Notes under the pieces: model-generated | The model's database searches: none | What the model saw: the letters and a program-made list of their open reading frames with translations, nothing else | Told to the model about the DNA's origin: nothing | Program-made: the position numbers and the translations under genes | Part shown: piece by piece, positions 31,434 through 52,012 of the stretch | Layout of the letters: each line of letters begins with the position of its first letter | How positions within the stretch are numbered: the stretch's first letter is position 1 | Source: Salipiger thiooxidans | GTDB taxonomy: Bacteria; Pseudomonadota; Alphaproteobacteria; Rhodobacterales; Rhodobacteraceae | Length of the DNA stretch: 64,000 bases | Assembly (NCBI RefSeq): GCF_900102075.1 | Contig: NZ_FNAV01000007.1 | Span: 62,001-126,000 of the forward strand | Reading direction: 5' to 3'

Positions 31434-31448
31434 CCGCAGGAGACCTGC

Positions 31449-35289: not shown

Positions 35290-35382
35290 CTGGTCCTCTC
35301 TATCCATGGTCCTGTGCGCATCGCGACAGGCCATGCAGCGTCTTTTTCATTGGCGGGGCGCGTCTCGGAGGGCGTCCGGCTG

Positions 35383-35457: not shown

Positions 35458-35475
35458 CAGTCGAGGTGCCCAATC

Positions 35476-35925
35476 ATGCAGCTTTCCGAAGAATACACCC
35501 TCCCCGCCCCGCGCTCCGAAGTCTGGGCCGCACTCCATGACACCGACGTGCTGCGCGACTGCATCCCCGGCTGCACCGAGCTCGAGGCCGAGGGCGACGA
35601 CACCTTCCATGCCAGCGTCACCACCAAGATCGGCCCGGTGAAGGCTACCTTCAAAGGCACTGTCACCATGAGCGAAGAGCAACCGCCCGAGAGCTTCGTG
35701 CTGAGCGGCGAGGGCAAGGGCGGCGTTGCGGGCTTTGCCAAGGGCCACGCCCGCATCTTCCTTGACGAACACCCCGAGGGCACGCTGCTGCGCTACGAGG
35801 TCGAGGTGAAGCTCGGCGGCAAGCTGGCGCAGCTGGGCTCGCGGCTCATCGCCTCGACCTCGCGCAAGCTCTCGGCGCAGTTCTTCGACAATTTCGCCGC
35901 GCGCTTCGAGACCGCCGAGGGCTGA
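35476..35925 (+). CDS. coxG: CoxG-family SRPBCC protein
   Basis: The protein has 149 residues. It is a START/SRPBCC fold with LPAPRSEVWAALHDTDVLRDCIPGC, the CoxG opening, then VTTKIGPVKATFKG and EGTLLRYEVEVKLGGKLAQLGSRL. CoxG proteins accompany molybdenum CO-dehydrogenase-type enzymes and help membrane attachment or maturation. The Mo-hydroxylase subunits are encoded 6 kb downstream on the same strand, so it likely serves that enzyme. The start at 35476 fits the fold; the frame is open 24 bp further upstream. Confidence 0.85.
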   Translation: MQLSEEYTLPAPRSEVWAALHDTDVLRDCIPGCTELEAEGDDTFHASVTTKIGPVKATFKGTVTMSEEQPPESFVLSGEGKGGVAGFAKGHARIFLDEHPEGTLLRYEVEVKLGGKLAQLGSRLIASTSRKLSAQFFDNFAARFETAEG

Positions 35926-35935
35926 TCAGCCCTCG
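35916..35935. terminator. Perfect 20-bp palindrome shared by the coxG and amidase stop codons
   Basis: The coxG stop TGA (35923-35925) and the amidase stop on the other strand (35926-35928) abut exactly at the centre of a perfect 20-bp palindrome, with arms CGAGGGCTGA. Both proteins consequently end in Glu-Gly. The RNA hairpin would form from either direction and may slow or end convergent transcription, though there is no T run. Confidence 0.5.
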
Positions 35936-37182: not shown

Positions 37183-37292
37183 GTCGGCCTCCATACCTTT
37201 TGTGTGCAAAATCCCACTTTTTTAACAGAACGGCAAGGCCGTCGCAGAACCGGGCCTTTTTCGTTGCCCCTGCGCGGAAACGGTGGTTCCGT

Positions 37293-37306
37293 TCCCAAAA
37301 CTGGAG
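37293..37306. promoter_or_regulatory. CCA-N4-TGG operator upstream of the XRE gene
   Basis: TCCCA-AAAC-TGGAG lies 12-25 bp before the XRE start codon, in the divergent region with the amidase gene. The core is conserved and the outer arms are imperfect. It would fit autoregulation. Confidence 0.42.
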
Positions 37307-37317
37307 AAAGGGACCAG

Positions 37318-38229
37318 ATGACGCTGCGATACGACGAAATCGGCCAGAGGCTGCGGGCATTTCGACTTGGCTCGGGGATGAGCGCCGAGGAAGTCGCCAA
37401 TCGCATCGGAATCTCGCGCACCGCGGTCTACCGCTTCGAAAAGGGCGAAGTGGTCAAGATCGAGACCCTGATCGGGCTGGCGGAACTGCTGAACGTGTCG
37501 CTGCCCACCCTGCTCGGGGTCGAGATCGAGTACATCTCGTCCGCCGTCACCTATTTCGAACGTCTCCGCCAGCTCGAGACCGAGGCCAACCAGATCATCG
37601 TCCTGGCCGGTCCGATCTCGTACCTGCTGGCCTCGGACGACTTCCATGAATCGCTGGAACGGCTGCTCAAGGAGAGCGTCCCCGAGACCGCCGACCACCG
37701 CGACCAGACGCTTGCGGACATCGAGCGGATCATCGAGATCCTCAAGGAACGCAAGGCGAATTACCTGTCGCGGCGGCCCACCATCGTCAACCTGATGTCC
37801 GCCCACGATATCGTGCGCCTGCTGCGCTCGGGCTTCGTCGGACAGCCCTTCCTGCCGCCGGACGATCTCAGCGAACGCCGCGCCCGCGCCCGCCGCGAGG
37901 TGCAGCATTTCATCGACCTGATCGAGGGCGAGCCCATCGGCGTGCAGGTCGGTCTCGTTACCGGCACCCTGCCCCACAGCGCCTTCCAGATTTTCCGCAA
38001 GGGCGACGTGAAGACCCTGTCGATCAGCCCGTTCCGCCTTGGCGAGCAGCCCAACGTGCGGCTTGGCGTGGCGATGATCACCAACACCGACGAGGCCATC
38101 GCGCTGCACGAGCGCACCATCGACCAGATGTGGCGCGAGTCGCTGAAGGGCCGCGAGGCCGCCGATTACCTCCGCAAGCTGCTCGAAACCGTCGACCGCG
38201 AGAACGGTATCACCCCGGACGGGCAATAA
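37318..38229 (+). CDS. XRE-family transcriptional regulator with large effector domain
   Basis: The protein has 303 residues. The N-terminal Cro/CI-type helix-turn-helix spans about residues 7-60 (LRAFRLGSGMSAEEVANRIGISRTAVYRFEKGEVVKIETL). The remaining ~240 residues form a mostly alpha-helical then alpha/beta domain that I do not recognise as a cupin; it contains FERLRQLETEANQIIVLAGPISYLL and a conserved-looking ISPFRLGEQPNVRLGVAMIT. It sits in the middle of the catabolic island and is the only regulator there, so it is the natural candidate to bind the CCA-N4-TGG sites. The GTG/ATG choices upstream lie in the amidase gene and were discarded. Confidence 0.82.
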   Translation: MTLRYDEIGQRLRAFRLGSGMSAEEVANRIGISRTAVYRFEKGEVVKIETLIGLAELLNVSLPTLLGVEIEYISSAVTYFERLRQLETEANQIIVLAGPISYLLASDDFHESLERLLKESVPETADHRDQTLADIERIIEILKERKANYLSRRPTIVNLMSAHDIVRLLRSGFVGQPFLPPDDLSERRARARREVQHFIDLIEGEPIGVQVGLVTGTLPHSAFQIFRKGDVKTLSISPFRLGEQPNVRLGVAMITNTDEAIALHERTIDQMWRESLKGREAADYLRKLLETVDRENGITPDGQ

Positions 38230-38315
38230 CCGCCCCCGACGCAACCGCCGCCCGCGCGCCCGCTTCCAAAACAGGCAGCGGGTGCCGCCGACCGCCATTC
38301 TCATTTTGAATTTTG

Positions 38316-38445: not shown

Positions 38446-39429
38446 ATGAACATTCTCAAGATTTCGGCGGCAGCCGGCCTCGCTCTCGGGCTGGCGCTCC
38501 CCGCCCAGGCCCAGACGGTCAACGAGTCGGTCTGCGGCGCAAGCCCGGGCGGACTGTGGTCGCTGGTGGGCGCCGGTCTCGATGCGGCGGTCAAGGCCGA
38601 GGCGCCCGGCTCGACCATCACCTACCAGACCTCCTCGGGCGGTCTCGCCAACGTGGTGCAGGTGCAGACCGGCGCCTGCGCGCTCGGCATGGCCAACGAC
38701 GGCGACCTCGCCTTTGCCAAGGCCGGCACCGACCCCTTCAAGGCGCCCGTCGAAGGCCTGACCGCGCTTGCCGTGCTCTATGACTGGGCGCCGGTGTGGT
38801 GGATCGCCCGCGCCGATTTCGCCGAGGAGTACGGGCTCGAAAGCCTCGCCGACCTCGCGGAGAAGAAGCCGCCGGTCCGCCTCGTGTTCAACCGCAAGGG
38901 CCTGCTGACCTCGGCCATCACCGAAGAGACGCTGGCCGCGCTCGGCGTCAGCATCGAGGACATCGAGGACTGGGGCGGCTCGGTGCAGTTCCAGGCCTCG
39001 GGCGAGCAGACCACGCTCATGCGCGACGGCCGCGTCGACCTGCTGGCCAACACGCTCTTCGAGGGCCACAGTTCGCTCACGCAGATGTCCGAGGCGACCC
39101 CGCTCAAGCTGCTCTCGGTGCCCGATGACGCGGCCGAGGCGGTGATCGAGAAGTTCTCGCTCAAGCCCTGGACGATTTCGGCCGACGCCAACCCCGGCGA
39201 GGGCGGCGACGTGAAGACGGTGACCACCTCGATCATCCTCTTCGCCACCGAGGAACTCGACGAAGAGACCGCCTATACCGTGACCAAGGCGATGCTCGAC
39301 CATCCCGACGCCATGGCCGCCGTCTCTGCCGCCATGTCGCGCTTCACGCCCGAGGGCATGAAGGAACAGGCCGTCGTGCCGTTCCACCCGGGCGCCATCC
39401 GCGCCTATGAAGAAGCAGGCCTGATGTAA
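38446..39429 (+). CDS. TAXI-family TRAP transporter substrate-binding protein
   Basis: The protein has 327 residues with a signal peptide ending at LPAQAQ. The mature domain starts ESVCGASPGGLWSLVGAGLDAAV and has TYQTSSGGLANVVQVQTGACALGMANDGDL, the TAXI-type pocket. It captures a solute in the periplasm for the fused TRAP permease encoded 44 bp downstream. TAXI ligands are generally unknown; the cluster suggests the substrate of the Mo-hydroxylase. Confidence 0.87.
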   Translation: MNILKISAAAGLALGLALPAQAQTVNESVCGASPGGLWSLVGAGLDAAVKAEAPGSTITYQTSSGGLANVVQVQTGACALGMANDGDLAFAKAGTDPFKAPVEGLTALAVLYDWAPVWWIARADFAEEYGLESLADLAEKKPPVRLVFNRKGLLTSAITEETLAALGVSIEDIEDWGGSVQFQASGEQTTLMRDGRVDLLANTLFEGHSSLTQMSEATPLKLLSVPDDAAEAVIEKFSLKPWTISADANPGEGGDVKTVTTSIILFATEELDEETAYTVTKAMLDHPDAMAAVSAAMSRFTPEGMKEQAVVPFHPGAIRAYEEAGLM

Positions 39430-39473
39430 GGGCACGCGCGGGGCCGCCCACCGGCCCCGCCGACCTCTTCCGG

Positions 39474-41435
39474 ATGCAAAGTGACCGCATGATCCAGCCC
39501 CCCTCCCCCACCTACGCGCAGCGCCTCGTCGGCGCAGCACTCGGCACCGGCCCGCGCCGGCGGCTCGACGGGCCGCTCGGCCACGCGATCAAGGGCTTTG
39601 CGGTCCTGACAGCGCTGTTCACCGTCTATGCCGCCACCATGTCCACCTGGGACGTGCTGGCCCGCACCATCGTCTTCCTGTCGATGATGCTGACGCTGCT
39701 GTTCCTGCTGGTGGGCGCCACGCCCGCTGCCCGCACCGACCGGCCCAGCATCCCCGACTTCATCCTCTCGGGCCTCAGCCTTGCCTGCCTCGTCTTCTTC
39801 AGCATCGAGATGCAGGCCATCGCCGAGCGCATCACGCTCTTCGATCCGCTGACGCCCGCCTACTGGATCTTCGGCTACGGCATCCTGCTGCTCTCGCTCG
39901 AGGCCGCCCGGCGGACCGTCGGCATGGGGCTTACGGGGATCGTGCTGATCTTCATGGCCTACAACCTCTGGGGACACAACTTCGAGGGCCCGCTGCGCCA
40001 CGGCTATATCAGCTTCGCGCATTTCCTCGACATCACCGTCTTCACCACCGACGGCATCTTCGGCGCCCCGGTGCAGGTGACCGCGACCTACGCCTTCCTC
40101 TTCGTGCTCTTCGGCACGCTGCTGGAAAAAGCCGGCGGCGGGCAGTTCTTCTTCGGCCTCGCCGCGGCGCTCACCGGGAAGTACAACGGCGGGCCCGCAA
40201 AGGTCGCCGTCATGTCCTCGGGGCTCTTCGGCATGCTCTCGGGCAGCCCGACCGCCGACGTGGTCACCACCGGCTCGGTCACCATCCCGGTGATGCAGAA
40301 GCTCGGCTACTCGCCACGCCTTGCCGGCGCCATCGAGGTCGCGGCCTCGACCGGCGGCTCGATCCTGCCGCCCGTCATGGGCGCCGCGGTCTTCATCATG
40401 GCCGAGTTCACCGGCATCTCCTATCTCGAGATCGTCTTCGCGGCGCTGATCTCGGCCATCCTCTACTACGTCTCGGTGTTCCTGCAGGTCGACCTGCGCT
40501 CGCGCCGGATGGGGGCGGGCAACCTCAACCCCGACGAGCTGCCAAAGGCCCGACAGGTGCTGCGCGACGGCTGGCCCTTCATCGTGCCGCTCGTGGTGCT
40601 GACCGGCTCTCTGGTGATGCATTTCAGCCCGACCTACGTGGCGCTCTACGGCACCATCGCCCTGCTCGGCACCTGGATCTTCCGCTGGAAGAGCTTCTCG
40701 CTGAAGGCGCTCTACGAGGGCGTCGCCCAGACCACCATAAGCATGGTCGCGGTGACCGGCGCCTGTGCCGCCGCGGGCATGGTCATCGGCGGCATCACCA
40801 TGACCGGCCTCGCCGGCAAGGTCTCGGAGCTGCTGGTGCTGATCGCGGGCTCGAACGACCTGCTGACGCTGGTCATCGCCGCCGCCATGACCATCCTGCT
40901 CGGCATGGGCATGCCCACCCCCGCAGCCTACGCGCTGGCCGCCGCCCTCGTGGCGCCGACGCTGGTCGGGGATTACGGCTACTCGCTGCTGCAGGCCCAC
41001 ATGTTCCTGCTCTACTTCGCGGTGCTCTCGGCGATGACGCCCCCGGTCGCCGTCGCTGCCTACGCCGCCGCCGCGATCGCCGACGCCAACCCGATCTCGA
41101 TCGCGGGCATGGCCTGCAAGCTGGCCGTCGCCGCCTTCGTTCTGCCCTTCACCTTCATGTATGCGCCCGGCATTCTCCTGCAGGGCAGCATCCCGGCAAT
41201 CGCCTTCGATGCGCTCCGCGTTCTGGTCGTCGTGCTGGCCATCGCCATCGCCTCGGAAGGCTACTGGCGCGGCCCGCTCGGGGCCCCGACCCGGCTGGCG
41301 CTCGCCATCGGAGCCTTGCTCATGATCTCGCCCAACCTCATCGCGCTGGCTGTCGGCGCCGTCCTCGTGGCCTTCGGGCTGTGGACGCTCCGCAGCAGCC
41401 GCGCGCCCCTCACGGAACTTCGCAAAGACCTCTGA
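39474..41435 (+). CDS. TRAP transporter fused permease (DctQ-DctM, TAXI type)
   Basis: The protein has 653 residues and about 16-18 hydrophobic segments. The first ~170 residues correspond to the small DctQ-like part and the remainder to the large DctM part, with SGLFGMLSGSPTADVVTTGSVTIPVM and STGGSILPPVMGAAVFIMAEF, the two conserved hairpin regions of TRAP permeases. TAXI systems commonly have this fused form. A second ATG at 39489 is also possible as start. It forms one transporter with the preceding TAXI protein. Confidence 0.9.
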   Translation: MQSDRMIQPPSPTYAQRLVGAALGTGPRRRLDGPLGHAIKGFAVLTALFTVYAATMSTWDVLARTIVFLSMMLTLLFLLVGATPAARTDRPSIPDFILSGLSLACLVFFSIEMQAIAERITLFDPLTPAYWIFGYGILLLSLEAARRTVGMGLTGIVLIFMAYNLWGHNFEGPLRHGYISFAHFLDITVFTTDGIFGAPVQVTATYAFLFVLFGTLLEKAGGGQFFFGLAAALTGKYNGGPAKVAVMSSGLFGMLSGSPTADVVTTGSVTIPVMQKLGYSPRLAGAIEVAASTGGSILPPVMGAAVFIMAEFTGISYLEIVFAALISAILYYVSVFLQVDLRSRRMGAGNLNPDELPKARQVLRDGWPFIVPLVVLTGSLVMHFSPTYVALYGTIALLGTWIFRWKSFSLKALYEGVAQTTISMVAVTGACAAAGMVIGGITMTGLAGKVSELLVLIAGSNDLLTLVIAAAMTILLGMGMPTPAAYALAAALVAPTLVGDYGYSLLQAHMFLLYFAVLSAMTPPVAVAAYAAAAIADANPISIAGMACKLAVAAFVLPFTFMYAPGILLQGSIPAIAFDALRVLVVVLAIAIASEGYWRGPLGAPTRLALAIGALLMISPNLIALAVGAVLVAFGLWTLRSSRAPLTELRKDL

Positions 41436-41437
41436 AC

Positions 41438-43810
41438 GTGCAAGACCAGACCACTCCCCCGCTGCCGCAGGACCACAACAAACCGCCGAGGAAATCGGCC
41501 TACATCGGCCGGGCCGTCACCCGGCTCGAGGACCGGCCGCTTGTCAGCGGCACCGGGCGCTTCGTGGGGGACATGGACATGCCCCACCAGCTCTGGGCCC
41601 GGGTCGTGCGCTCGGCCCATGCCACGGGGCGCATCACCGGCATCGACATCTCCGAGGCGCTCGAGATGCCGGGGGTGGTCGCGGTCTGGACCTCAAAGGA
41701 CCTGGGCGACCTGCCCGACATCCCGTTCAGGGCCACCAGGATCGAGGGACTCGGACCCTACACCCAGCCCTGCCTTGCCAAGGGCCGGGTGCGCTACGTG
41801 GGCGAGCCCGTGGCCATCGTCTTCGCCGAGGATCCCTACCTCGCCGAGGACGCCGCCGAGACGGTCTTCGCCGACATTGACGAGGACGTGGATCCGATCC
41901 TCGACGCCCGCGCCGAGCCGGGCGAATTCGCCCCCGGCATCAGCACCGCGCCGCTGACCCTCACCAAGGGCTACGGCGACACCGAGGCCGCCTTTGCGGA
42001 GGCCGCGCATGTGGTCGAGCTCGACCTCGCCATCGGACGGCACTCGGGGATTCCGATGGAGACCCGCGGCGCGCTGGCGGCGTGGGACAAGGGGCGCGAA
42101 CGGCTCGACCTCTGGGGCGCCACCAAGCGGCCGCACTGGAACCGCGACCGCCTCGCCGAGATGTTCGGCCTTTCCCCGAGCCAGGTCGCGCTGCACGAGC
42201 CGCATGTCGGCGGTGGCTTCGGCATCCGGGGCGAGCTCTACCCTGAGGACATCCTCGTCTGTCTCGCCGCCATGCGCCTCGAGCGGCCGGTGAAGTGGAT
42301 CGAGGACCGGCGCGAGCACATGATGGCCGCCAACCAGTCGCGCGAGCAGCAGCACCTGATCCGCGCCGCGGTCGACGCCGAGGGCAGGCTCCTGGCCATC
42401 GACGAGACGCTGCACCACGATCAGGGCGCCTATGTCCGCACCCACGGCGCGCGGGTCGCGGACATGTCGATCGGTCTCCTGCTCGGGCCCTACCGCGTGC
42501 CCGCCTATGCGGCGCGCGCCCATTACCGGCTGACCGCCAAGACCCCCGCCGCCACCTACCGCGCGCCCTCGCGGTTCGAGAGCACCTTCGTGCGCGAGCG
42601 CCTGATCGACGCGATTGCCGCCAGGACCGGAATCGACGCGCTCGAGCTGCGCCGGCGCAACTTCATCGCCTCCGATGAGATGCCCTTCGACCGCCAGATG
42701 ACGGCGCTTGAATCGGACGTGATCCTCGACAGCGGCGATTATGTCGGGCTGCTCGGCAAGGCCGAGGCCTTCTGCGGGCTCGACGCGCTGCGTACCGAGG
42801 CCGCCGGGCGGCGCGCCAGGGGCGAATGCGTCGGCGTGGGTCTTGCCTATTTCGTCGAGAAAAGCGGCCTCGGGCCCTCCGAGCTGGTGCGCCTGACCGT
42901 GCAGCCCGACGGCAGCATCGAGATCGTGACCGGCGCCGCCTCGCTCGGTCAGGGGATGGAGACCGCCGTCGCCCAGATCGCCGCCGACACGCTGGGCGCC
43001 GACTACCGCGCCTGCCGCGTCATCCATGGCGACACCGACCGCATCGCGCACGGCTGGGGCGCCCACGCCAGCCGCGTCACGGTGATGACCGGCGAGGCCA
43101 CCCGCCGCGCCGCCGAGACCGTGCGCGAAAAGGCCCGCGAGATGGCCGCCGCCCTGCTCGATTGCGCCCCCGAGGGCATCGAGATCGACGGCGGCGTCGC
43201 CACCTGCCGCACCTCCGGCGCCAGCCTCACGCTGGCCGAGATCGCCGCCGCACTCGACCCCGTCTCGCCCAGGCGAGGCGACCGCGAGCCCGGCCTCGCC
43301 GCCGAGGCTTGGTACCACAACAAGCACATGAACTACCCCTACGGCGCCCATATCGCGCTGGTGGTCGTCGATGCCGAGACCGGGCGCACCAAGCTCGACC
43401 GCTACTGGATCAGCTACGACGTGGGCCGCGCCGTGAACCCGGCGATGATCGAGGGCCAGATCGTCGGCGGCCTCGCGCAGGGGCTCGGCGGCGCGCTGCT
43501 CGAGGAGTTCCGCTTCGACGATCAGGGCCAGCCGCTTTCGGTCACCTTCGCCGACTACCTGATGCCGACCTCGGCCGAGATGCCCGACTGCCAGGTGCAG
43601 ATCCTGCAGGACGCGCCCTCGCCGCTGAACCCGCTCGGGGTCAAGGGCTCGGGCGAGGCGGGCGTGACCGGCTCGGGTGCCGCCATCGCCTCGGCCATCG
43701 ACGACGCGCTGCAAAGGCCCGGGCTCGTCACCCGCCTGCCGGTGACGCCGCAATACCTCAAGGCGCGCATCGCCGAATACGACGCGGCGCGGGCGGAGGG
43801 TTCGGAATGA
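41438..43810 (+). CDS. Xanthine dehydrogenase-family molybdopterin-binding large subunit, copy 1
   Basis: The protein has 790 residues from a GTG start 2 bp after the TRAP stop; an ATG at 41381 would overlap that gene by 54 bp. Ald_Xan_dh_C and MoCo-binding domains are complete: IGRAVTRLEDRPLVSGTGRF at the N-terminus, GGGFGIRGELYPED, the active-site loop TPAATYRAPSRFE, ASLGQGMETAVAQI and the catalytic glutamate in GVKGSGEAG. It hydroxylates a C-H next to nitrogen or an aldehyde using water. It is adjacent to a second full-length large subunit and shares a single FAD and Fe-S subunit with it. Confidence 0.87.
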   Translation: MQDQTTPPLPQDHNKPPRKSAYIGRAVTRLEDRPLVSGTGRFVGDMDMPHQLWARVVRSAHATGRITGIDISEALEMPGVVAVWTSKDLGDLPDIPFRATRIEGLGPYTQPCLAKGRVRYVGEPVAIVFAEDPYLAEDAAETVFADIDEDVDPILDARAEPGEFAPGISTAPLTLTKGYGDTEAAFAEAAHVVELDLAIGRHSGIPMETRGALAAWDKGRERLDLWGATKRPHWNRDRLAEMFGLSPSQVALHEPHVGGGFGIRGELYPEDILVCLAAMRLERPVKWIEDRREHMMAANQSREQQHLIRAAVDAEGRLLAIDETLHHDQGAYVRTHGARVADMSIGLLLGPYRVPAYAARAHYRLTAKTPAATYRAPSRFESTFVRERLIDAIAARTGIDALELRRRNFIASDEMPFDRQMTALESDVILDSGDYVGLLGKAEAFCGLDALRTEAAGRRARGECVGVGLAYFVEKSGLGPSELVRLTVQPDGSIEIVTGAASLGQGMETAVAQIAADTLGADYRACRVIHGDTDRIAHGWGAHASRVTVMTGEATRRAAETVREKAREMAAALLDCAPEGIEIDGGVATCRTSGASLTLAEIAAALDPVSPRRGDREPGLAAEAWYHNKHMNYPYGAHIALVVVDAETGRTKLDRYWISYDVGRAVNPAMIEGQIVGGLAQGLGGALLEEFRFDDQGQPLSVTFADYLMPTSAEMPDCQVQILQDAPSPLNPLGVKGSGEAGVTGSGAAIASAIDDALQRPGLVTRLPVTPQYLKARIAEYDAARAEGSE

Positions 43811-46167
43811 CGCCCGACGACACCACCCTCGTCGGCCGCTCGGTGCCCCGGCGCGAGGACCGCGCGCTGGTCGCGGGCCAGGGGCGTTACCTCGACGACA
43901 TCGCAAGCCCCGGCGGGCTGCACGCGGCCTTCCTGCGCAGCCCCTACGCCCACGCCACCATCGGCGGGGCCGATCTCGACGATATCCGCGCCATGCCCGG
44001 GGTCGTCGCCGTCTACACCGCGAAGGAGCTGGCCGCCCTGCTCCCCGGCGGGCAGCGGCTGGCGACGGGCCTGCCCTCCTCGTCCATCGCCTTCGCGCTC
44101 GACCGCCCGATCCTCCCCGAGGCAGAGGCCGTCTACGTGGGCGAGGCGCTCGCCATGGTCGTGGCCGTGACCCGCGCCGAGGCCGAGGACGCCGCCGAGG
44201 CCATCGACCTCGATCTCGACCCGCTCGACCCGGTGGCCGACCTCGAAAGCGCCGCGCGGGACGATGCGCCCAAGGCCCACGCCCACCTGCCGCACAACCG
44301 GCTTGCCAGCTTCGGCTTCGACTACGGCGACATCGGGGCGGCCTTCGACGGCGCCGCGCATGTGGTCTCGCGCCGGTTCCGCATCGACCGGGGCGGCGCG
44401 CATTCCATGGAAGGGCGCGGCGTGCTGGCGGCGCCCGACGCGATGACCGGGCGGCTCTCGGTCTGGTCCTCGACCCAGACCCCGCACGCGCTCAAGCGCC
44501 ACATCTGCACGCTGCTCGCCCGCGACGAGGGTGACGTCGACGTCACCGCCCCCGACCTCGGCGGCGGCTTCGGTCCCAAGCTCGTCACCTACCCCGAGGA
44601 AATCGCCGTCGCCGCCGCGGCGCAGGCGCTCGGCCGCCCGGTGCGCTGGGTCGAGGACCGGCGCGAGCATTTCCTCGCCGCCTGCCAGGAGCGCGAGCAG
44701 CTCTGGACCGTCGAAATGGCCTTCGACGCCGGCGGCCGCATCCTCGGCCTGCGCGGCACGCTGCTGCACGACCACGGCGCGTGGACCGCGCGCGGGCTCA
44801 ACGTGCCCTACGCCTCGGGCATGATGCTGCCGCTGATGTACGACGTGCCCGCCTATGACCTGAACATCGTCGTCACCGTCACCAACAAGACGCCCGTCAC
44901 CCCGGTGCGCGGTGCCGGCCAGCCGCAGGCGACCTACGTGATGGAGCGCCTGCTCGACGCCGGCGCCCGCGTCTGCGGGCTCGACCGCGCCGAGATCCGC
45001 CGCCGCAACCTCGTGACACCGGACCGGATGCCCTGCCCGCGCCCGCTCAAGCTGCGCTCGGGCGAGCCCGTCGTGCTCGACAGCGGCGACTACCCCGAGA
45101 CCCAGCGCAAGGCGCTCGACGGTATCGGCTGGGACGGGTTCGAAACCCGCCGCGCCGAGGCCCGCAGCCGCGGCAAGCGGCTTGGGGTCGGCCTTGCCAA
45201 CTACGTCGAGGGCACCGGCCGCGGACCGTATGAAACGGTGAGCGTGCGCATCGCGCGCGACGGCCGCGTCAAGGTCAACACCGGCGCCGCCGCCATGGGA
45301 CAGGGCGTCGGCACGGCGCTGGCGCAGATCGTCGCCGACCACCTCGGGCGCGCGCCCGCCACCATCGACCTGACGCTGGGCGACACACGCGAGCCCTACG
45401 GCTTCGGCGGCTTCAACAGCCGCCAGACCGTGGTCGCCGGCGCCTCTGCCGATGCCGCCGCACGGATCGTGCGCGGCAAGGTGCTGCAGGTCGCGTCGCA
45501 CCTGCTCGGCCTGCCCGGGGACGCGCTCGACATCGAGGCCGACCGGGTGGTCGTGAGGGGCAGCAACAGCGGCCAGAGCCTGTCGCTTGCCGAGATCGCC
45601 ACCGCCTCCGAGGGCCTGCCCGGCTACCGCCTGCCCGGGATCGAGACCCCTGGCCTGCAGGCCACCGAGCGCGTGCTGGTCGAGGGCATGGCCTTTGCCA
45701 ACGGCGCGCTCGCCGCCGAGGTCGAGGTCGACGAGGCCACCGGCGCGGTGCGGGTGGCGAGGCTCTTCCTCGCCCATGACTGCGGCCGCATGGTCAACCC
45801 GCAGATGGTCGACGGCCAGATCATGGGCGGCCTCGCCCACGGACTCGGCAATGCGCTCTATGAGAAGATGAGCTTTGACGACGAGGCCCAGCCCCTGACC
45901 GGCAGCCTCGCCGACTACCTTCTGGTCAGCAGCGCCGAGATGCCGGTGATCGAGATCGCGCACAGCGAAAGCCTCAGCCCGCAGAACGCGCTCGGCGTAA
46001 AGGGCGTAGGCGAAAGCGGCGTGATCCCCACCGCCGCCGCCATCGCCTCGGCGGTGGAACACGCGCTCGAGGATCTCGGCGTCGAGATCGCCGAGGCCCC
46101 GCTGACGCCGCAGGCCCTGCATGCCGCGATCCGCGCGGCGAAGGCCGCGAAAGGAGACACGACATGA
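43807..46167 (+). CDS. Xanthine dehydrogenase-family molybdopterin-binding large subunit, copy 2
   Basis: The protein has 786 residues; the start is the ATG overlapping the copy-1 stop by 4 bp. Features are VGRSVPRREDRALVAGQGRY, LGGGFGPKLVTYPEE, the loop TPVTPVRGAGQPQATYVMER (form II-like rather than the CO-dehydrogenase cysteine loop), AAMGQGVGTALAQI and the catalytic glutamate in GVKGVGESG. It is clearly diverged from copy 1, especially in the substrate loop, so the two probably handle different substrates or form a mixed enzyme. It is followed, coupled, by a class II aldolase gene. Confidence 0.88.
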   Translation: MTPDDTTLVGRSVPRREDRALVAGQGRYLDDIASPGGLHAAFLRSPYAHATIGGADLDDIRAMPGVVAVYTAKELAALLPGGQRLATGLPSSSIAFALDRPILPEAEAVYVGEALAMVVAVTRAEAEDAAEAIDLDLDPLDPVADLESAARDDAPKAHAHLPHNRLASFGFDYGDIGAAFDGAAHVVSRRFRIDRGGAHSMEGRGVLAAPDAMTGRLSVWSSTQTPHALKRHICTLLARDEGDVDVTAPDLGGGFGPKLVTYPEEIAVAAAAQALGRPVRWVEDRREHFLAACQEREQLWTVEMAFDAGGRILGLRGTLLHDHGAWTARGLNVPYASGMMLPLMYDVPAYDLNIVVTVTNKTPVTPVRGAGQPQATYVMERLLDAGARVCGLDRAEIRRRNLVTPDRMPCPRPLKLRSGEPVVLDSGDYPETQRKALDGIGWDGFETRRAEARSRGKRLGVGLANYVEGTGRGPYETVSVRIARDGRVKVNTGAAAMGQGVGTALAQIVADHLGRAPATIDLTLGDTREPYGFGGFNSRQTVVAGASADAAARIVRGKVLQVASHLLGLPGDALDIEADRVVVRGSNSGQSLSLAEIATASEGLPGYRLPGIETPGLQATERVLVEGMAFANGALAAEVEVDEATGAVRVARLFLAHDCGRMVNPQMVDGQIMGGLAHGLGNALYEKMSFDDEAQPLTGSLADYLLVSSAEMPVIEIAHSESLSPQNALGVKGVGESGVIPTAAAIASAVEHALEDLGVEIAEAPLTPQALHAAIRAAKAAKGDTT

Positions 46168-46898
46168 CCATCCCCCGTCCGCAGGCGCTGCTCGACCAGC
46201 TTGTCACCGCCACGCGCATCCTCGTGCACGAGGGCGTCATGGATGTCTTCGGTCATGTCGCCCTGCGCGATCCCTCGGACCCGGGCGTGTTCTGGCTCGC
46301 CCGCGCCGGGGCGCCCGCGCGGCTGACCGCCGGTGACCTCCTGCCCTTCGACCTCGACGGCGCCCCGCTCGAACCCACCGATGCCGCGCTCTTCTCCGAG
46401 CGCTTCATCCACGCCGCCGTGTTCCGCGCCGATGCCACCGCGCAGGCCAGCGTCCACCACCATGCGGCCGCCCTCATGCCCTATTGCATGGGCGGCCGCC
46501 CGCTGGTGGCGCTCAGCCAGACCGGTGCCTGGATGGGTGCCGAGGTGCCGCTCTGGGACAGCCGCGCGTCCTTCGGCGACACCAACATGCTGGTGACCGA
46601 CATGGCGCAGGCGACCGACCTCGCCGCCGCCCTCACCCCGGGCCGCATCGTGCTGATGCGCGGCCATGGCGTGCTGGTGACGGGCACGGGCCCCGAGGAC
46701 GTGGTGTTCCGCTGCATCCACGCCTGCCGCGAGGCCGAAACCCTGACCGCGGCCCTGACCCTTGGCCCGGTGACCCCGCTGTCCGAGGGCGAGATCGCCC
46801 TTGCCGGAACCCCCGCCCCTGCGGCGGTCCGGCGCGGCTGGGACCACTGGACCGCCCGCCTTCCCGGCGACACGACCTATCGAAAAGGAGCGCAGTGA
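46164..46898 (+). CDS. Class II aldolase/adducin-family protein
   Basis: The protein has 244 residues. The zinc-binding histidines appear in QASVHHHAAALM and in LMRGHGVLVTG, and an N-terminal DVFGHVALRDP segment matches the family. Members are fuculose-phosphate-type aldolases or decarboxylases acting on small hydroxy-acids. It is embedded between the large subunits and the FAD subunit gene of the Mo-hydroxylase (overlaps of 4 bp and 1 bp), so it should act on a product of that pathway, perhaps a decarboxylation or retro-aldol step (inference). Confidence 0.82.
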   Translation: MTIPRPQALLDQLVTATRILVHEGVMDVFGHVALRDPSDPGVFWLARAGAPARLTAGDLLPFDLDGAPLEPTDAALFSERFIHAAVFRADATAQASVHHHAAALMPYCMGGRPLVALSQTGAWMGAEVPLWDSRASFGDTNMLVTDMAQATDLAAALTPGRIVLMRGHGVLVTGTGPEDVVFRCIHACREAETLTAALTLGPVTPLSEGEIALAGTPAPAAVRRGWDHWTARLPGDTTYRKGAQ

Positions 46899-47785
46899 TG
46901 AAACCCGCGCCGTTCACCTATTACCGACCGACCAGCCTCGGGGATGCCGCGCAGCGCCTGCGCGACGGCGCCGACGAGGGCGCGCTGGTCATCGCCGGCG
47001 GCCAGAGCCTCGTTCCCATGATGGCGCTCCGGGTGGCCTACGCGACCGAGCTCATCGACCTGAACGCGCTGGACGGGCTCGGCACGCCGCGGGTCGAGGG
47101 CGACAGCTTCGTGATCCCGACCCTCACCCGCCACGCCACCTTCCATGACACCGAAGCCGCGCCCGCGCCGCTCGGCGCGCTGCTGCACGGGGTGGCCGAG
47201 CACATCGCCCACTACCCGATCCGCCAGCGCGGCACCTTCGGCGGCTCGCTCAGCCACGCCGACCCCTCGTCGGAATGGTGCCTGGTGACCGCAACCCTGG
47301 ACGGCACCATCCACCTGCTCTCGGCGGACGGGCCCCGCACCGTGGAGGCCGCCGACTGGAGCGATGGCCCCATGAGCACCACGCGCGAGCCCGACGAGAT
47401 CCTCACCGAAGTGCACCTGCCGCTGCTGCCCGGGAACACGCTCTGGGGCTTCTACGAGTTCAACCGCCGCGCCGGCGACTTCGCGCTCGGCATGGCCCTC
47501 TGCGTGCTCGAGATGGACGGCGACAGCGTCGTCGCCGCCCGCATCGGCCTCGGCGGCATCGAGGACCACCCCCGCCGCATCCCCGAGGCCGAGGACGCAC
47601 TCGTGGGCCAGCCCCTTGACGCGGCCAGCATCGGTGCCGCCGCCTCCGCCGCAATGCAGGCCGTCGACCCGATGGAAGACACCACAACCTCTGCCGGGTA
47701 CCGCCGCGACCTGACCGGCACCGTGATCACCCGCGCGCTCGAGGCCGCCCGCAACCGGGCGCCCGCACCGGCCGAAACCGCCTGA
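46898..47785 (+). CDS. Mo-hydroxylase FAD-binding subunit (CoxM/XdhB type)
   Basis: The protein has 295 residues. FAD motifs are LVIAGGQSLVPMMALRVA (residues ~28-45) and RQRGTFGGSLSHADPSSE (near residue 110), followed by the CO_deh_flav_C domain. It passes electrons from the iron-sulfur subunit to an acceptor. The ATG overlaps the aldolase stop by one base; the 2Fe-2S subunit gene follows after 10 bp. It is the only FAD subunit for two large subunits. Confidence 0.92.
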   Translation: MKPAPFTYYRPTSLGDAAQRLRDGADEGALVIAGGQSLVPMMALRVAYATELIDLNALDGLGTPRVEGDSFVIPTLTRHATFHDTEAAPAPLGALLHGVAEHIAHYPIRQRGTFGGSLSHADPSSEWCLVTATLDGTIHLLSADGPRTVEAADWSDGPMSTTREPDEILTEVHLPLLPGNTLWGFYEFNRRAGDFALGMALCVLEMDGDSVVAARIGLGGIEDHPRRIPEAEDALVGQPLDAASIGAAASAAMQAVDPMEDTTTSAGYRRDLTGTVITRALEAARNRAPAPAETA

Positions 47786-47795
47786 GGACCCCGAT

Positions 47796-48293
47796 ATGTC
47801 AGACAAGACCGACATCACCCTGACCGTCAACGGAACCGAGCGCACGATCTCCTGCGTGCCGCGCAAGACCCTTGCCGATGCCCTGCGCGAGGATTGCCGC
47901 CTGACCGGCACCCACGTCGGCTGCGAGCACGGCGTGTGCGGCGCCTGCACCGTCATGGTCAACGGCGCGCCGGTGCGCTCGTGCCTGATGTTCGCCGTGC
48001 AGGCCGAGGGCGCCGAGGTGCGCACCGTCGAGGGGCTCGCCCCCGAGGGCGGGCTCTCCGAACTGCAGCAGGCCTTCATCGACAACCACGCACTGCAATG
48101 CGGCTTCTGCACGCCGGGCTTCCTCATGCTGATCACCGGCGCGCTCGAGAAGGACCCCGGGATGAGCGACGAAGACCTGACCGAGGTGCTCTCGTCCAAC
48201 CTCTGCCGCTGCACCGGCTACCGCAACATCGTGCGCGCCGCGCTGGCGGCCGCACCCGCCATCCGCGCCCGGGCCAGGGAGGCCGCCGCATGA
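47796..48293 (+). CDS. Mo-hydroxylase 2Fe-2S subunit (CoxS/XdhC type)
   Basis: The protein has 165 residues. The N-terminal plant-type cluster is CEHGVCGACTVMVNG with a fourth Cys in VRSCL. The C-terminal cluster uses CGFCTPG and CRCTGYRNI. Both [2Fe-2S] sites are complete. It carries electrons from the molybdenum centre to the FAD subunit. The next gene starts 4 bp inside it. Confidence 0.94.
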   Translation: MSDKTDITLTVNGTERTISCVPRKTLADALREDCRLTGTHVGCEHGVCGACTVMVNGAPVRSCLMFAVQAEGAEVRTVEGLAPEGGLSELQQAFIDNHALQCGFCTPGFLMLITGALEKDPGMSDEDLTEVLSSNLCRCTGYRNIVRAALAAAPAIRARAREAAA

Positions 48294-49186
48294 GCCTGAT
48301 CACCCTCAAGACCCACGACCGCTACGACTACAGCCCCCTGCCCCAGCGCCCGGATTTCGCCTGGCCCGGGGGCAAGCGCCTGTCGGTGGCGATCTGCAAC
48401 AACATCGAGGTGTTCAGCTTCCGCGACGGGCTCGGCAGCGACAGCGCCCAGGTCGGCGCGCCGCAGACCTCGCGAAACTACGCGTGGCGCGACTACGGCA
48501 ACCGCGTCGGCCAGTGGTACCTCTTCGACCTGCTCGACGAGATGGGCCTGCCCGCCTCGCACAACTTCAACTCGCTGCTCTTCGATCACTGCCCGGCCAT
48601 CGCCGACCGCATGATCGCCCGCGGCGACGAGTTCATCGGCCACGGCCGCAGCAACGCCGAACGGCAGGACGTGCTGCCCCCCGCCGAGGAAGAGGCGCTG
48701 ATCCGCGAAGCCTACGACGCGATCACGGCCTATACCGGCAAGGCCCCCGCGGGCTGGCTCGGGCCCTATCTGGCGCAGACCGACATCACGCTCGACCTGC
48801 TGCGCGAGGTGGGCTTCTCCTACGTGCTCGACTGGCCGGCGGACGACCAGCCGTTCTGGATGCGCACCCGCACACGGCCGATCCTCTCGGTGCCCTACTC
48901 CATCGAGGTCAACGACAGCCCGGTCATGGCCTTCCGGCAGGAGGGCCCGGCGAGCTTTGAGCGCATGATGATCGACCAGTTCGACGAGATGCTTCTGCAA
49001 AGCGCCAGGTACCCGCTCTGCTACACCATCGTGCTGCACCCCTTCGTGATCGGCCACCCCTACCGCCTGCGTGCCCTGCGCCGGGCGCTCGCGCATATCA
49101 TGGAACACCGCGACGACATCTGGATCACCACGCCGGGCGCCGTCGCCGAGCATTACGCAACCCTCTTCCCCGCAGGCTCCGCATGA
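48290..49186 (+). CDS. Polysaccharide deacetylase-fold hydrolase, PuuE-like
   Basis: The protein has 298 residues. It has the NodB-type fold as in PuuE and related N-acyl hydrolases: VAICNNIEVFSF at the first strand, PASHNFNSLLFD, EFIGHGRSN and PAGWLGPYLAQT. The usual metal-binding Asp pair of sugar deacetylases is replaced by Asn-Asn-Ile-Glu, as in the PuuE (allantoinase-type) branch, so it is unlikely to act on polysaccharides. It probably opens a cyclic amide/ureide or removes a formyl/carbamoyl group. It is coupled to both neighbours by 4-bp overlaps. Confidence 0.8.
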   Translation: MSLITLKTHDRYDYSPLPQRPDFAWPGGKRLSVAICNNIEVFSFRDGLGSDSAQVGAPQTSRNYAWRDYGNRVGQWYLFDLLDEMGLPASHNFNSLLFDHCPAIADRMIARGDEFIGHGRSNAERQDVLPPAEEEALIREAYDAITAYTGKAPAGWLGPYLAQTDITLDLLREVGFSYVLDWPADDQPFWMRTRTRPILSVPYSIEVNDSPVMAFRQEGPASFERMMIDQFDEMLLQSARYPLCYTIVLHPFVIGHPYRLRALRRALAHIMEHRDDIWITTPGAVAEHYATLFPAGSA

Positions 49187-49893
49187 CCGGCAAGATTTGG
49201 GACGACTTCATCACCGAGCGTGACCGCAAGGTCTTTGCCGCGGCGGGTTACGGCGTGCGCGGCACCCTGCCCGCCCGCCCCGCGCTGCTGCTCGTGGGCT
49301 TCAACCAGGGCAACCTCGACACCATCCCCTCGGCGCAGGCGGCGCTCGACGCGGTGCGGCCGCTGGTGACCGCGGCCCGCGCGCAGGGCCTGCCGGTGAT
49401 CCACGCCACCGGCGCCACCCGCCCCGACGCATGGGACCGCCCGCAGGAGGACGGCCGCGCGGCGGGTGCCGACCCGCTGGCCGAGACCGCCTTAGCAGAG
49501 GCGCTGCAACCCGCGCCCACCGACATCGTGATCCGCCGTCAGGCGCCGTCGGCCTTCTTCGACAGCGACCTCATGAGCCTGCTGAACCTGCTCGGCGCCG
49601 ACGGCATCGTCATCGCGGGCGGCGCCACCGCCGGGGCCATGCGCGCCACGGTGATCGACGCGTTCAGCCTCAACCTGCGCGTCGCCATCGCCGAGGACGC
49701 CTGCTTCGACGCCTGGGAGGCCAGCCACGCCATGGCGCTCTGCGACCTGCAGGCGAAATACGCCGACCCGCTGAGCGCGGCCGGGCTCGCCGACTGGGTC
49801 GCCACCCTGCCCGGCGACATGTTCGCCCTGCCGAAGGGCTGCGCCGACAAGCGGCTCGACCTCATGCCCGCCTACGGAAAGATCCCCCGATGA
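49183..49893 (+). CDS. Isochorismatase-fold protein lacking the catalytic triad
   Basis: The protein has 236 residues. It aligns along its length with the protein encoded by the next gene but has lost all three catalytic residues of cysteine hydrolases. The Asp of the first strand is Gly (ALLLVGFNQG versus ALLVIDVSWG), the Lys is Arg (VIRRQAPSAFF versus VYKRKPSAFF), and the Cys is Ala (GGATAGAMRA versus GTTTSGCVRA). The rest of the fold, including SAFF and EDACFD, is kept and the frame is intact. It is therefore probably a pseudoenzyme partner or an enzyme with new chemistry rather than a decayed gene. Confidence 0.8.
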   Translation: MTGKIWDDFITERDRKVFAAAGYGVRGTLPARPALLLVGFNQGNLDTIPSAQAALDAVRPLVTAARAQGLPVIHATGATRPDAWDRPQEDGRAAGADPLAETALAEALQPAPTDIVIRRQAPSAFFDSDLMSLLNLLGADGIVIAGGATAGAMRATVIDAFSLNLRVAIAEDACFDAWEASHAMALCDLQAKYADPLSAAGLADWVATLPGDMFALPKGCADKRLDLMPAYGKIPR

Positions 49894-50615
49894 TCTGGGA
49901 CGACTACCTCTCTGCCGCAGATCGCGACCGCCTTGCCACGACCGGGCTCACCGGGCCTGCGGGCCTTGGCCAGCGCCCCGCGCTTCTGGTCATCGACGTG
50001 TCCTGGGGCTTTGCGGGCGACCGGCCCGGCGAGGACATCCTCGACAGCATCCGCCGCTGGCCCAACTCCTGCGGGGCCGAGAGCTGGGACGCGGTCGACC
50101 GCATCGCCGCGCTCTGCACCGCCGCCCGCGCCCGCGGGATCCCGGTGCTCTACACCACCGGCCGCGCCCGCGGCGACGCCTGGGACGTGGGCAGCTGGTC
50201 GTGGAAGAACTCGCGCACCGGCGAGCAGGTGCCCGCGACGCCGCAGGACCGCGACGCCAACGAGATCGTCTCGGCGCTGACGCCCGAGGCGCGCGACCTG
50301 CTGGTCTACAAGCGCAAGCCCTCGGCCTTCTTCTCGGCCCCCACCGCCACCCATCTGCGCCGCCTCGGCTGCGACAGCGTGCTGCTGACCGGGACCACCA
50401 CCTCGGGCTGTGTGCGGGCCAGCGCGGTCGACGCCTACAGCCACGGCTTCAAGGTCGCCGCCATCGAGGACGGCTGCTTCGACCGCGCCCAGTCGAGCCA
50501 CGCGGTGGCGCTCTTCGATATCGCCATGCGCTACGGCGCGGTGATCGACAGCACCGCGGCGCTCGGCCACATGGCGGCGCTCGCGGCCCCCTCGGCCCCC
50601 GCCCTGCCGGGCTGA
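49890..50615 (+). CDS. Isochorismatase-family cysteine hydrolase
   Basis: The protein has 241 residues with an intact triad: Asp in ALLVIDVSWGF, Lys in VYKRKPSAFF and nucleophilic Cys in GTTTSGCVRASAVDAYSHG, followed by EDGCFDRAQSSHAVALFD. The closest known activities in this layout are N-carbamoylsarcosine amidase and maleamate/ureidoacrylate hydrolases, which release ammonia or CO2 plus ammonia from a small amide. It is the last gene of the plus-strand operon and is followed by a terminator. Confidence 0.87.
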   Translation: MIWDDYLSAADRDRLATTGLTGPAGLGQRPALLVIDVSWGFAGDRPGEDILDSIRRWPNSCGAESWDAVDRIAALCTAARARGIPVLYTTGRARGDAWDVGSWSWKNSRTGEQVPATPQDRDANEIVSALTPEARDLLVYKRKPSAFFSAPTATHLRRLGCDSVLLTGTTTSGCVRASAVDAYSHGFKVAAIEDGCFDRAQSSHAVALFDIAMRYGAVIDSTAALGHMAALAAPSAPALPG

Positions 50616-50698: not shown

Positions 50699-52012
50699 TC
50701 AGCGGGTCAGCGACGGCAGGAAGGTCACCAGCGGCGGGAAGGCCGCCATGATCACCATGCCGAGGATGAAGATCCACACGAAGGGCCATGCCGAGCGGAA
50801 GATCGCGGTCATCGGCTCGTTCGGGGCAGACCCCTGCAACGCGAAGAGCACGTAGCCGAAGGGCGGCGTGATGCCCCCGACGGTGATGTTCACGAGGAAG
50901 ATCAGCCAGAACCACAGCGGATCGAAGCCGTAATGCGCCACGATGGGCGAATAGATCGGCACAACGATCAGCATCAGCGCGGTCTGGTCGATGAACATGC
51001 ACATGATGAAGGGGAAAGCCATCAGCACCAGCAGCATCGCCCAGCCCGGCAGGTCCATGGCGCTGATCATCGAGGTCATGGCCGAGATCCCGCCGCTCAT
51101 CGCGAGCAGCTGGCTGAACATCTTCGACGACGCCATGATCAGCAGGATCATCGCCGAGATCCTGGTGGCCGAGAGCACCGACTCCTTCAGCACCGAGAAG
51201 CTCAGCCGCTCGTAAATCATCGTCGTCGCCAGCGCGCCCAGCACGCCGGTCGCCGCCGCCTCGGAGGGCGTGGCGATGCCGGCCATGATGAAGCCCATGA
51301 TCGAGCCCACGATGATGGTGAAGGGCGCAAGCGACAGCAGCGCCTTCAGCACGTCGCCGGGGCCGCGCTCGGGCGGCACGTCCTCGGCGTCGGTGTCGAG
51401 CGACGGGTCGAGCCGGATGCGGATCAGGATGTAGGAGACGAAGAGCACCGCCAGCATCAGACCCGGCACGATGCCCCCCACCAGCATGTCGCCGATCGAG
51501 ACCCCCGCCAGCGTGCCCACGATGATCGCCAGCAGCGACGGCGGGATGATCGGCGCCAGCGACGCGCCTGAGACGATGGCGCCCATGGCCAGCGTCGACG
51601 AGCCGCCGCGCTCCTTGATGCCCGGCAGCAGGGTCTTGCCCAGCATCGCCGCCACCCCCATGGCCGCGCCCGAGAGCGCGCCGAAGACGGTCGAGAGCAC
51701 CACCGCCAGCACGAACTGGCGGCCGCGCACCCGGCCCACCAGCACCTCGATGGAGCGGAACATGACGGTCAGCGCCCGGCCCCGGAACAGCAGCTCTCCC
51801 AGCAGGATGAACAGCGGGATCGCGGTGAGCGATCCGGTGGTGGCGGTGTCGTAGATCGAGTTCGCCAGCAGCTTGAAGCCGTTGGCGCCGAGCAGCAGGA
51901 AAGTGCCGCCGACGTTGACGATCAGGAAGGTGACGAAGATCGGCAGCCCGGTGCCGAAGAGCAGCAGCAGCGCGCCGGTCAGCGCGAAGACGGCAGTGAT
52001 CCCGGTGATCAT
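50699..52012 (-). CDS. TRAP transporter large permease DctM
   Basis: The protein has 437 residues and about twelve hydrophobic helices. Family markers are GNAxGA-like VFGALSGAAMGVAAMLGKTLLPG, ASLAPIIPPSLLAIIVGTLAGVSIGDML and the C-terminal NITVGGITPPFGYVLFAL. Together with DctQ and DctP it forms a sodium-driven importer for an organic acid-like solute. It is the last gene of the minus-strand dctP-dctQ-dctM unit converging on the Mo-hydroxylase operon. Confidence 0.92.
   Translation of the reverse strand: MITGITAVFALTGALLLLFGTGLPIFVTFLIVNVGGTFLLLGANGFKLLANSIYDTATTGSLTAIPLFILLGELLFRGRALTVMFRSIEVLVGRVRGRQFVLAVVLSTVFGALSGAAMGVAAMLGKTLLPGIKERGGSSTLAMGAIVSGASLAPIIPPSLLAIIVGTLAGVSIGDMLVGGIVPGLMLAVLFVSYILIRIRLDPSLDTDAEDVPPERGPGDVLKALLSLAPFTIIVGSIMGFIMAGIATPSEAAATGVLGALATTMIYERLSFSVLKESVLSATRISAMILLIMASSKMFSQLLAMSGGISAMTSMISAMDLPGWAMLLVLMAFPFIMCMFIDQTALMLIVVPIYSPIVAHYGFDPLWFWLIFLVNITVGGITPPFGYVLFALQGSAPNEPMTAIFRSAWPFVWIFILGMVIMAAFPPLVTFLPSLTR

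Follow-up and report, generated by a model that had tools for sequence, protein, structure and literature searches.

Genes of Salipiger thiooxidans predicted to convert a pyridine 4-carboxylate into tricarballylate through a cyclic imide

A gene cluster of the marine bacterium Salipiger thiooxidans was analysed in a 64,000-nucleotide stretch of contig NZ_FNAV01000007.1 (positions 62,001 to 126,000; hereafter the window). It is likely that this cluster encodes a catabolic system for a pyridine bearing a carboxylate at C4 (isonicotinate type), which is probably entered as pyridine-3,4-dicarboxylate and ends in tricarballylate. The core is an operon of ten plus-strand genes, extending by open reading frame (ORF) coordinates from 38446 (start of the TAXI gene) to 50615 (stop of the Iso2 gene), and a minus-strand arm upstream of it encodes an amidase, an acyl-coenzyme A (CoA) ligase, a hotdog thioesterase, and an MDR reductase. 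The operon is half of a larger system, to which the divergent arm, the CoxG gene, and the XRE regulator gene also belong. The genes are as follows (PDB, Protein Data Bank).

32208-33209, minus strand: MDR-family reductase (PIG3/acrylyl-CoA-reductase-like), predicted citrazyl-CoA reductase; TIGR02824 217.5 bits, under the cut-off of 296.8
33206-33616, minus strand: hotdog-fold thioesterase, predicted to release CoA; TIGR00369 47.6 bits, cut-off 36.6
33616-35334, minus strand: acyl-CoA ligase, predicted citrazinate-CoA ligase; Pfam AMP-binding, best PDB match 4fuq (malonyl-CoA synthetase)
35452-35925, plus strand: CoxG-like protein, possible molybdenum (Mo)-hydroxylase accessory; PF06240, E 2e-31
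35926-37209, minus strand: amidase, predicted half-amide hydrolase; PF01425, E 4.6e-69, best PDB match 1ock (malonamidase E2), E 4.9e-67
37318-38229, plus strand: XRE-family regulator, located between the two arms; HTH_3, E 4.8e-12
38446-39429, plus strand: TAXI solute-binding protein; TIGR02122 129.9 bits, cut-off 84.35
39474-41435, plus strand: fused TRAP permease; TIGR02123 550.3 bits, cut-off 320.65
41438-43810, plus strand: Mo-hydroxylase large subunit L1, predicted second ring hydroxylation; three Mo-subunit Pfam domains, best PDB match 7dqx (6-hydroxypseudooxynicotine dehydrogenase)
43807-46167, plus strand: Mo-hydroxylase large subunit L2, predicted first ring hydroxylation; three Mo-subunit Pfam domains, best PDB match 1t3q (quinoline 2-oxidoreductase)
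46164-46898, plus strand: class II aldolase-fold protein, predicted hydroxypyridine-carboxylate decarboxylase; best PDB match 2z7b (Mlr6791), E 1.2e-50
46898-47785, plus strand: FAD subunit M; FAD_binding_5, CO_deh_flav_C
47796-48293, plus strand: 2Fe-2S subunit S; Fer2, Fer2_2
48290-49186, plus strand: PuuE-like protein (Polysacc_deac_1), predicted cyclic imide hydrolase; TIGR03212 107 bits, best PDB match 3cl6 (PuuE)
49183-49893, plus strand: Iso1, isochorismatase fold without the catalytic Cys; PF00857
49890-50615, plus strand: Iso2, isochorismatase fold, predicted half-amide hydrolase; best PDB match 4l07

Each family assignment of the ten operon genes was backed by both Pfam and NCBIfam, in agreement with a preliminary description of this DNA, which had named a TAXI-TRAP importer, two complete large subunits, M, S, an aldolase, a PuuE-like protein, and two isochorismatase-fold proteins, and had rightly placed an amidase just upstream. 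The co-directional arrangement with overlaps of 1-4 nucleotides, mostly from L1 on, was likewise seen in the ORF coordinates. Overlaps of 4 nucleotides were found at L1/L2, L2/aldolase, S/PuuE, PuuE/Iso1, and Iso1/Iso2, and one of 1 nucleotide at aldolase/M; gaps of 10, 2, and 44 bp were present at M/S, TRAP/L1, and TAXI/TRAP, respectively, all values being computed with start codons of our choice.

From these genes we infer the substrate, every reaction, and the order of the reactions as follows. The TRAP importer would take up the pyridine carboxylate. L2 and L1, sharing M and S, would hydroxylate both carbons flanking the nitrogen with oxygen from water, and the aldolase-fold protein would strip off the carboxylate that stands ortho to the hydroxyl so introduced. 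The expected intermediate, 2,6-dihydroxypyridine-4-carboxylate (citrazinate, a cyclic-imide tautomer), would be converted to its CoA thioester by the ligase, the C=C of the thioester would be reduced by the MDR enzyme, the imide would be opened by the PuuE-like hydrolase, and the half-amide would be hydrolysed by the amidase and/or Iso2. Hydrolysis of the thioester by the hotdog enzyme would then give tricarballylate, which TcuAB would oxidise to aconitate, a compound entering the citric acid cycle. Cyclic imides are tautomeric with 2,6-dihydroxypyridines. To yield tricarballylate, a pyridine must carry a C4 carboxylate and be oxidised at both carbons flanking the nitrogen. Kretzer and co-workers reportedly described a pathway from isonicotinate through 2-hydroxyisonicotinate, citrazinate, citrazyl-CoA, and 2,6-dioxopiperidine-4-carboxyl-CoA to tricarballylate, and the present set holds a candidate gene for each of these steps. 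Isonicotinate in Mycobacterium INA1 passes through a 2,6-dihydroxy product, according to an excerpt of PMC4548258, which cites the 1993 paper of that group. The preliminary description had already outlined an N-heterocycle route of hydroxylation, hydrolytic ring opening, and C-N hydrolysis; the ligase-thioesterase-MDR arm, the tcuAB link, and the end product had escaped it.

The gene set recurs in other genomes and is therefore not due to chance. Named genomes were scanned with the PuuE-like protein, which gave at least 573 relatives; among the best 80 of these, whose loci are numbered with L, the Mo-hydroxylase genes accompany the PuuE-like gene in L003-L012 and L022 and partly in L051 and L076 (the view of L007 ended at a contig edge; L168 shows more of that cluster). 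The nearest named relative found was Salipiger marinus, with 82-94% identity over the ten operon proteins. L1 at E<=1e-200 was found in 3 of 394 family genomes and L2 at E<=1e-150 in 16 of 289 class genomes, the window's own being included in both counts. We also assembled 17 genomes chosen for carrying the cluster, 13 via the named loci (G679-G691) and four others (G277, G128, G210, and G104). All 17 contain L1; the CoA ligase at E<=1e-120 and an MDR relative of 54-89% identity were each present in 15. XRE relatives of 57-95% identity adjoin the cluster in other loci. Two side observations were made in Salipiger pentaromativorans: flavin-reductase and DHBP-synthase/GTP-cyclohydrolase II genes lie between MDR and the aldolase (L167, 13210-14885), and three related genes, one of which was scanned and found to be a luciferase-like monooxygenase, follow the PuuE-like gene (L006, 10967-15166).

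The predicted end product is suggested by a conserved linkage to the tricarballylate genes tcuA and tcuB. The divergent arm of S. marinus (L154) has the order amidase, CoxG, ligase, thioesterase, MDR, TcuA, TcuB, and the MDR stop, ending at 8676, overlaps the TcuA frame, beginning at 8673, by 4 nucleotides. The order MDR-TcuA-TcuB was also observed in C. sediminis (L155), where the frames are open and overlapping when the earliest starts are taken. A single stretch of pDP3 from the betaproteobacterium Alicycliphilus denitrificans DP3 contains CoxG, ligase (55% identical to that of the window), thioesterase (48%), MDR (57%), PuuE-like (52%), amidase (44%), and XRE (58%) genes together with two complete Mo-hydroxylases (M-S-L sets) and tcuA-tcuB. 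TcuA at E<=1e-60 was found in 15 of the 17 cluster genomes, in 13 of them at E<=1e-160, and 11 genomes have a TcuA relative at most 18 kb away from the cluster (G679, G680, G681, G682, G684, G685, G687, G689, G277, G128, and G104), that of G104 being only 36% identical to the pDP3 protein. By rough arithmetic for one gene in a 5-Mb genome, the chance of TcuA lying so near the cluster is about 1% per genome. All four TcuA proteins scanned (the window genome's own, L154, L162, and L116) passed NF006130, so that the TcuA in or near the cluster of relatives resembles that of known tricarballylate utilisation systems wherever it was scanned; TIGR02485 was passed by all of these except L116. The own and L154 TcuB proteins passed TIGR02484, and neither reached the subfamily cut-off of NF011607.

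The Mo-hydroxylase genes were then compared across these loci. L, M, and S subunits were found with their domains and with GxGE, the motif of xanthine oxidase family Mo-hydroxylases. In a tree of large subunits, L1 and L2, both complete, fell in separate clades, and L1 grouped with KdhC of pAO1 (support 100/99), a long branch to which L1 is 41% identical over 96%. This grouping favours L1 as the enzyme of the second hydroxylation. The neighbours of KdhC on pAO1 differ from the genes described here, being annotated as 2,6-dihydroxypyridine 3-monooxygenase and 2,6-dihydropseudooxynicotine hydrolase, with no imidase in the stretch viewed.

The order M S L1 M S L2 was observed in L112 and L051 (L2 is cut in L051 and whole in L170). 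A joined M+S tree of 29 rows, in which L129, whose M is truncated, forms a long branch, split into two clades (100/100). On the L1-type side were six pairs adjoining an L1 of at least 47% identity (L076, L129, L115, and the first pairs of L162, L112, and L051) and all 11 of the 11 shared or L2-aldolase-M-S pairs, including that of the window. On the L2-type side were eight pairs adjoining L2 (L118, L126, L127, L125, L113, L117, and the second pairs of L112 and L051), the second pair of L022 and that of L128, both adjoining L1-like subunits of 41-42%, the first pair of pDP3, and the second pair of L162, the last without an adjoining L2. Distant relatives of L1 and L2 have an M/S pair each, and the shared pairs group with the L1 type, so that L2 has probably given up its own M and S and now works with those of L1. 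Both successive hydroxylations and a mixed L1-L2 complex had been considered in the preliminary description; the separate pairs in L112 and L051 and the two M/S clades agree better with the former.

The nearest solved relative of the aldolase-fold protein was Mlr6791 (175.6 bits over 226 residues), a 3-hydroxy-2-methylpyridine-4,5-dicarboxylate decarboxylase. HxH and the downstream His and Glu, presumably the metal ligands of class II aldolase-fold decarboxylases, were retained in 12 of 12 aligned rows and in Mlr6791, and the protein is predicted to be decarboxylase-like. In the pattern of Mlr6791, the substrate bears a hydroxyl, one carboxylate is lost, and the neighbouring carboxylate is kept; conversion of 2-hydroxypyridine-3,4-dicarboxylate to 2-hydroxyisonicotinate would fit this pattern, so pyridine-3,4-dicarboxylate is predicted by analogy as an entry substrate. 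Of the whole pathway, this step is predicted with the least certainty. A vitamin B6 route, prompted by the likeness to Mlr6791, was rejected, since in contrast to the Mlr6791 system no ring-cleaving oxygenase was found among the operon and divergent-arm genes.

The aldolase gene shares a contig with L1 in all 11 near genomes (G679-G689). It lies between L2 and M in eight; in the other three (G682, G684, and G685), it follows MDR in the ligase arm. Its relocation within the cluster while remaining with L1 argues for a functional linkage. An interpretation of the gene as optional, suggested by its not adjoining L2 in L006, L008, and L009, proved wrong, the gene being present there in the ligase arm. 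At E<=1e-60, it was found in 1 of 198 family genomes, namely the window's own, in a sample that excludes the other two L1 carriers of the 394-genome count. Among six more distant genomes, it was absent at E<=1e-25 in G690 and G128; in the others, the relatives are 33-41% identical and, when sharing the contig of L1, lie more than 40 kb off. Separately, in strain HLUCCA09 (L169, 9390-12450), L2 does not adjoin the L1 orthologue (58%), which is found instead some 6 kb past the MDR gene, together with a second aldolase (44-45%).

The score of the PuuE-like protein, 107 bits in TIGR03212, is far below the PuuE allantoinase equivalog cut-off of 424.6. HxnM of the Aspergillus nicotinate pathway is a PuuE-related imidase, as stated in an excerpt of PMC9304392. 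In Iso1, Ala occupies the position of the catalytic Cys in six of six loci, and an alignment with 4l07/4l08 agreed in register; Iso1 is therefore probably a pseudoenzyme serving as a non-catalytic partner. The catalytic Cys of Iso2 was retained in all six loci. The closest structure to Iso2, 4l07, presumably represents an enzyme with maleamate amidase activity, and Iso2 also resembles N-carbamoylsarcosine amidohydrolase (26st). The folds given for the aldolase and Iso1 in the preliminary description were correct, whereas the decarboxylase-like character of the former and the probable loss of catalysis in the latter had been missed.

Amidase and Iso pair are both present in the window, L003/L154, L004/L120, and L005/L174. 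Some loci hold only one of the two: Hoeflea (L166) and Pseudohoeflea (L165) have Iso1 and Iso2 within the ligase arm and zero amidase match in the stretch, and L006, L012, and L022 have the amidase with no Iso pair in the stretches viewed. This distribution suggests that the amidase and the Iso pair are interchangeable. A different recurrent cluster was observed in 13 of the 80 best PuuE loci (L015, L016, L018, L023, L025, L027, L028, L029, L036, L038, L044, L053, and L073), in which the PuuE relative is accompanied by MmgE/PrpD proteins, an Iso2-like protein, and a FAD_binding_2 dehydrogenase. DctPQM, an amidohydrolase, and a nitroreductase-methyltransferase fusion are frequently present as well; L044 lies near PEP-mutase-like and aconitase genes. 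This cluster possibly represents a second imide pathway.

A different solution to ring reduction is suggested by two distant genomes, G210 and G104. No ligase match at E<=1e-120 was found in either, and the MDR match is only 42-44% in G210 and none was found at E<=1e-80 in G104. In both, PyrD-like and PyrK-like genes adjoin the PuuE-like gene, and a UbiD-family decarboxylase gene adjoins L1; in G104, the TcuA relative adjoins the PyrD/PyrK-like genes. The PyrD-like protein of L116 passed PRK07259 and TIGR01037, and the PyrK-like protein was under its cut-offs. The copies in the cluster are not the only ones, since both genomes have another PyrD relative, a distant one (27-28%), and G104 has a further copy (49%) elsewhere. 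Because citrazinate differs from orotate by a CH2 replacing one ring NH, a dihydroorotate-dehydrogenase relative would be a natural citrazinate reductase, and the PyrD/PyrK-like genes may replace ligase and MDR in G104. A fuller scheme can be offered tentatively: an oxygen-independent route for pyridine-3,4-dicarboxylate, and also isonicotinate, through a cyclic imide to tricarballylate, with two once-separate Mo-hydroxylases served by one M/S pair, possibly within a mixed L1-L2 enzyme, and with two alternative reductases for one step, namely the CoA-linked MDR enzyme or a dihydroorotate-dehydrogenase relative acting directly on citrazinate.

Most of these enzymes could also be arranged in a nicotinate-type route, in which 2,6-dihydroxynicotinate, formed by two hydroxylations, would be decarboxylated by the aldolase-fold protein to 2,6-dihydroxypyridine/glutaconimide, imide and half-amide hydrolysis would yield glutaconate, and the ligase and MDR enzyme would form glutaconyl-CoA and glutaryl-CoA, respectively. 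This order is sensible for nearly all enzymes, decarboxylase included; it agrees with the grouping of L1 with KdhC, an enzyme that forms a 2,6-dihydroxypyridine, and the nearest solved relatives of the amidase and the ligase are dicarboxylate half-amide and dicarboxylate enzymes. However, tcuAB would have no role, although L154 and L155 carry these genes in the gene run itself and other genomes carry them close to the cluster, and the PyrD/PyrK-like genes in L115 and L116 suggest a ring carboxylate on the C=C. We regard this route as unlikely. The PyrD/PyrK-like genes of L115 and L116 would instead suit a pyrimidine-type route, from a pyrimidine carboxylate by hydroxylation to orotate, reduction to dihydroorotate, and opening to N-carbamoylaspartate, formed by the PuuE-like protein and decarbamoylated by Iso2; an allantoinase is among the PuuE-fold enzymes, and Iso2 has the likeness to 26st mentioned above. 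Such a route is quite improbable, as tcuAB, CoA ligase, and thioesterase would be without a role, and all NCBIfam matches of the operon proteins to the purine (XDH) and Rut pyrimidine (RutB) equivalog models were below cut-off. A five-membered route, from a pyrrole with an acetate side chain through succinimide-acetate to the half-amide of tricarballylate, would by chemical reasoning also need two Mo-hydroxylations and an imidase and reach tricarballylate, yet we give it hardly any credence, since reduction would be superfluous, so that the CoA ligase, MDR, and PyrD-like genes would serve no purpose, and the best-matching large subunits of known structure act on rings of the pyridine and quinoline type.

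Several observations weigh against the route from a pyridine 4-carboxylate to tricarballylate. In the window genome, tcuAB is outside the operon: the single tcuA match shares the 294-kb contig with the operon at a distance of 36 kb from MDR, and tcuA also occurs in a congener that has no L1 at E<=1e-200; the tcuA of the window genome therefore need not belong to the system. TcuA is widespread, with a match at E<=1e-150 in 52 of 198 family genomes. It is on another contig in G688, G690, and G691, that of G210 is 71 kb off and 36% identical, and none was found at E<=1e-60 in G683 and G686. The large subunits of pDP3 are only 29-34% identical to L1/L2, and the pDP3 set may start from another isomer. 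The ligase match of G128 contains two stop codons. The ligase profile gave no pointer to pyridine acids, and its use as a clue to the substrate was unproductive. Finally, we know of no decarboxylase in the INA1 isonicotinate pathway.

As for the remaining features of the window, the genes tail to tail with Iso2 are possible members of the system.

50699-52012, minus strand: TRAP DctM; PF06808
52009-52623, minus strand: TRAP DctQ; PF04290
52646-53758, minus strand: TRAP DctP; PF03480

DctM adjoins Iso2 also in L003, L165, and L166, and DctPQM does not adjoin it in L004/L120 or L005 among the loci viewed. The CoxG-like protein had zero matches in the NCBIfam scan. An ORF at 37222-38304 on the minus strand was rejected as a gene, as it had no Pfam or NCBIfam match and the XRE regulator is encoded on the opposite strand. 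The window is part of the 294-kb contig, and the operon region is probably plasmid-borne, because repA, repB, and repC of a repABC replicon lie nearby at 54303-58473. A search of plasmid DNA gave 19 records with short matches, of which none reached 80% query coverage. QueE and QueF genes of the 7-deazaguanine pathway (30651-31913) share the contig with repABC.

Gene content, families, the conserved tcuAB linkage, the ancestry of M and S, and the loss of Cys in Iso1 can be read directly from the DNA. Bacterial maleamate pathways for nicotinate and picolinate were rejected, as no ring-cleaving dioxygenase or deformylase was found among the operon and divergent-arm genes, to which the search was confined. 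The hxn system of Aspergillus nidulans is similar in that the pyridine ring is hydroxylated toward a piperidine-dione, a PuuE-related imidase (HxnM) opens it, and an amidase (HxnN) acts on the half-amide; it differs in its monooxygenases, substrate isomer, and end product, and has no CoA step in the excerpt of PMC9304392. A search of open-access literature by titles and abstract openings, weak in that most subscription journals were outside its scope, gave, among the papers listed, no gene assignment for isonicotinate or citrazinate breakdown.

The statement in the preliminary description that the genes match no nicotinate, purine, or pyrimidine pathway known to it holds for purine and pyrimidine degradation, for which the equivalog scores were insufficient. 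The gene combination resembles isonicotinate catabolism of INA1, which is reported at the enzyme level by Kretzer and co-workers (1991, 1993). The reported steps are two Mo-hydroxylations next to the nitrogen, a CoA ligase, a reductase, ring hydrolysis, and tricarballylate as product, and the present set has candidate genes for all of them. INA1 provides enzymes in an actinobacterium, whereas the present set is proteobacterial and known from genes alone, with a decarboxylase candidate, shared M/S, and the Iso1/Iso2 pair on its side. These appear to be the genes that had been lacking for a pathway described until now through its enzymes. They would give a concrete gene list for a pyridine-acid pathway known from enzyme studies of the early 1990s, with new candidate decarboxylase, imidase, and CoA-reductase activities, and nearly all the candidate genes are in one stretch of a cultivable carrier, Salipiger marinus DSM 26424. 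The system may also be a clear example in which two Mo-hydroxylases have come to use a single electron-transfer pair, and, if the pathway is true, it would explain how bacteria open the pyridine ring without oxygenases.

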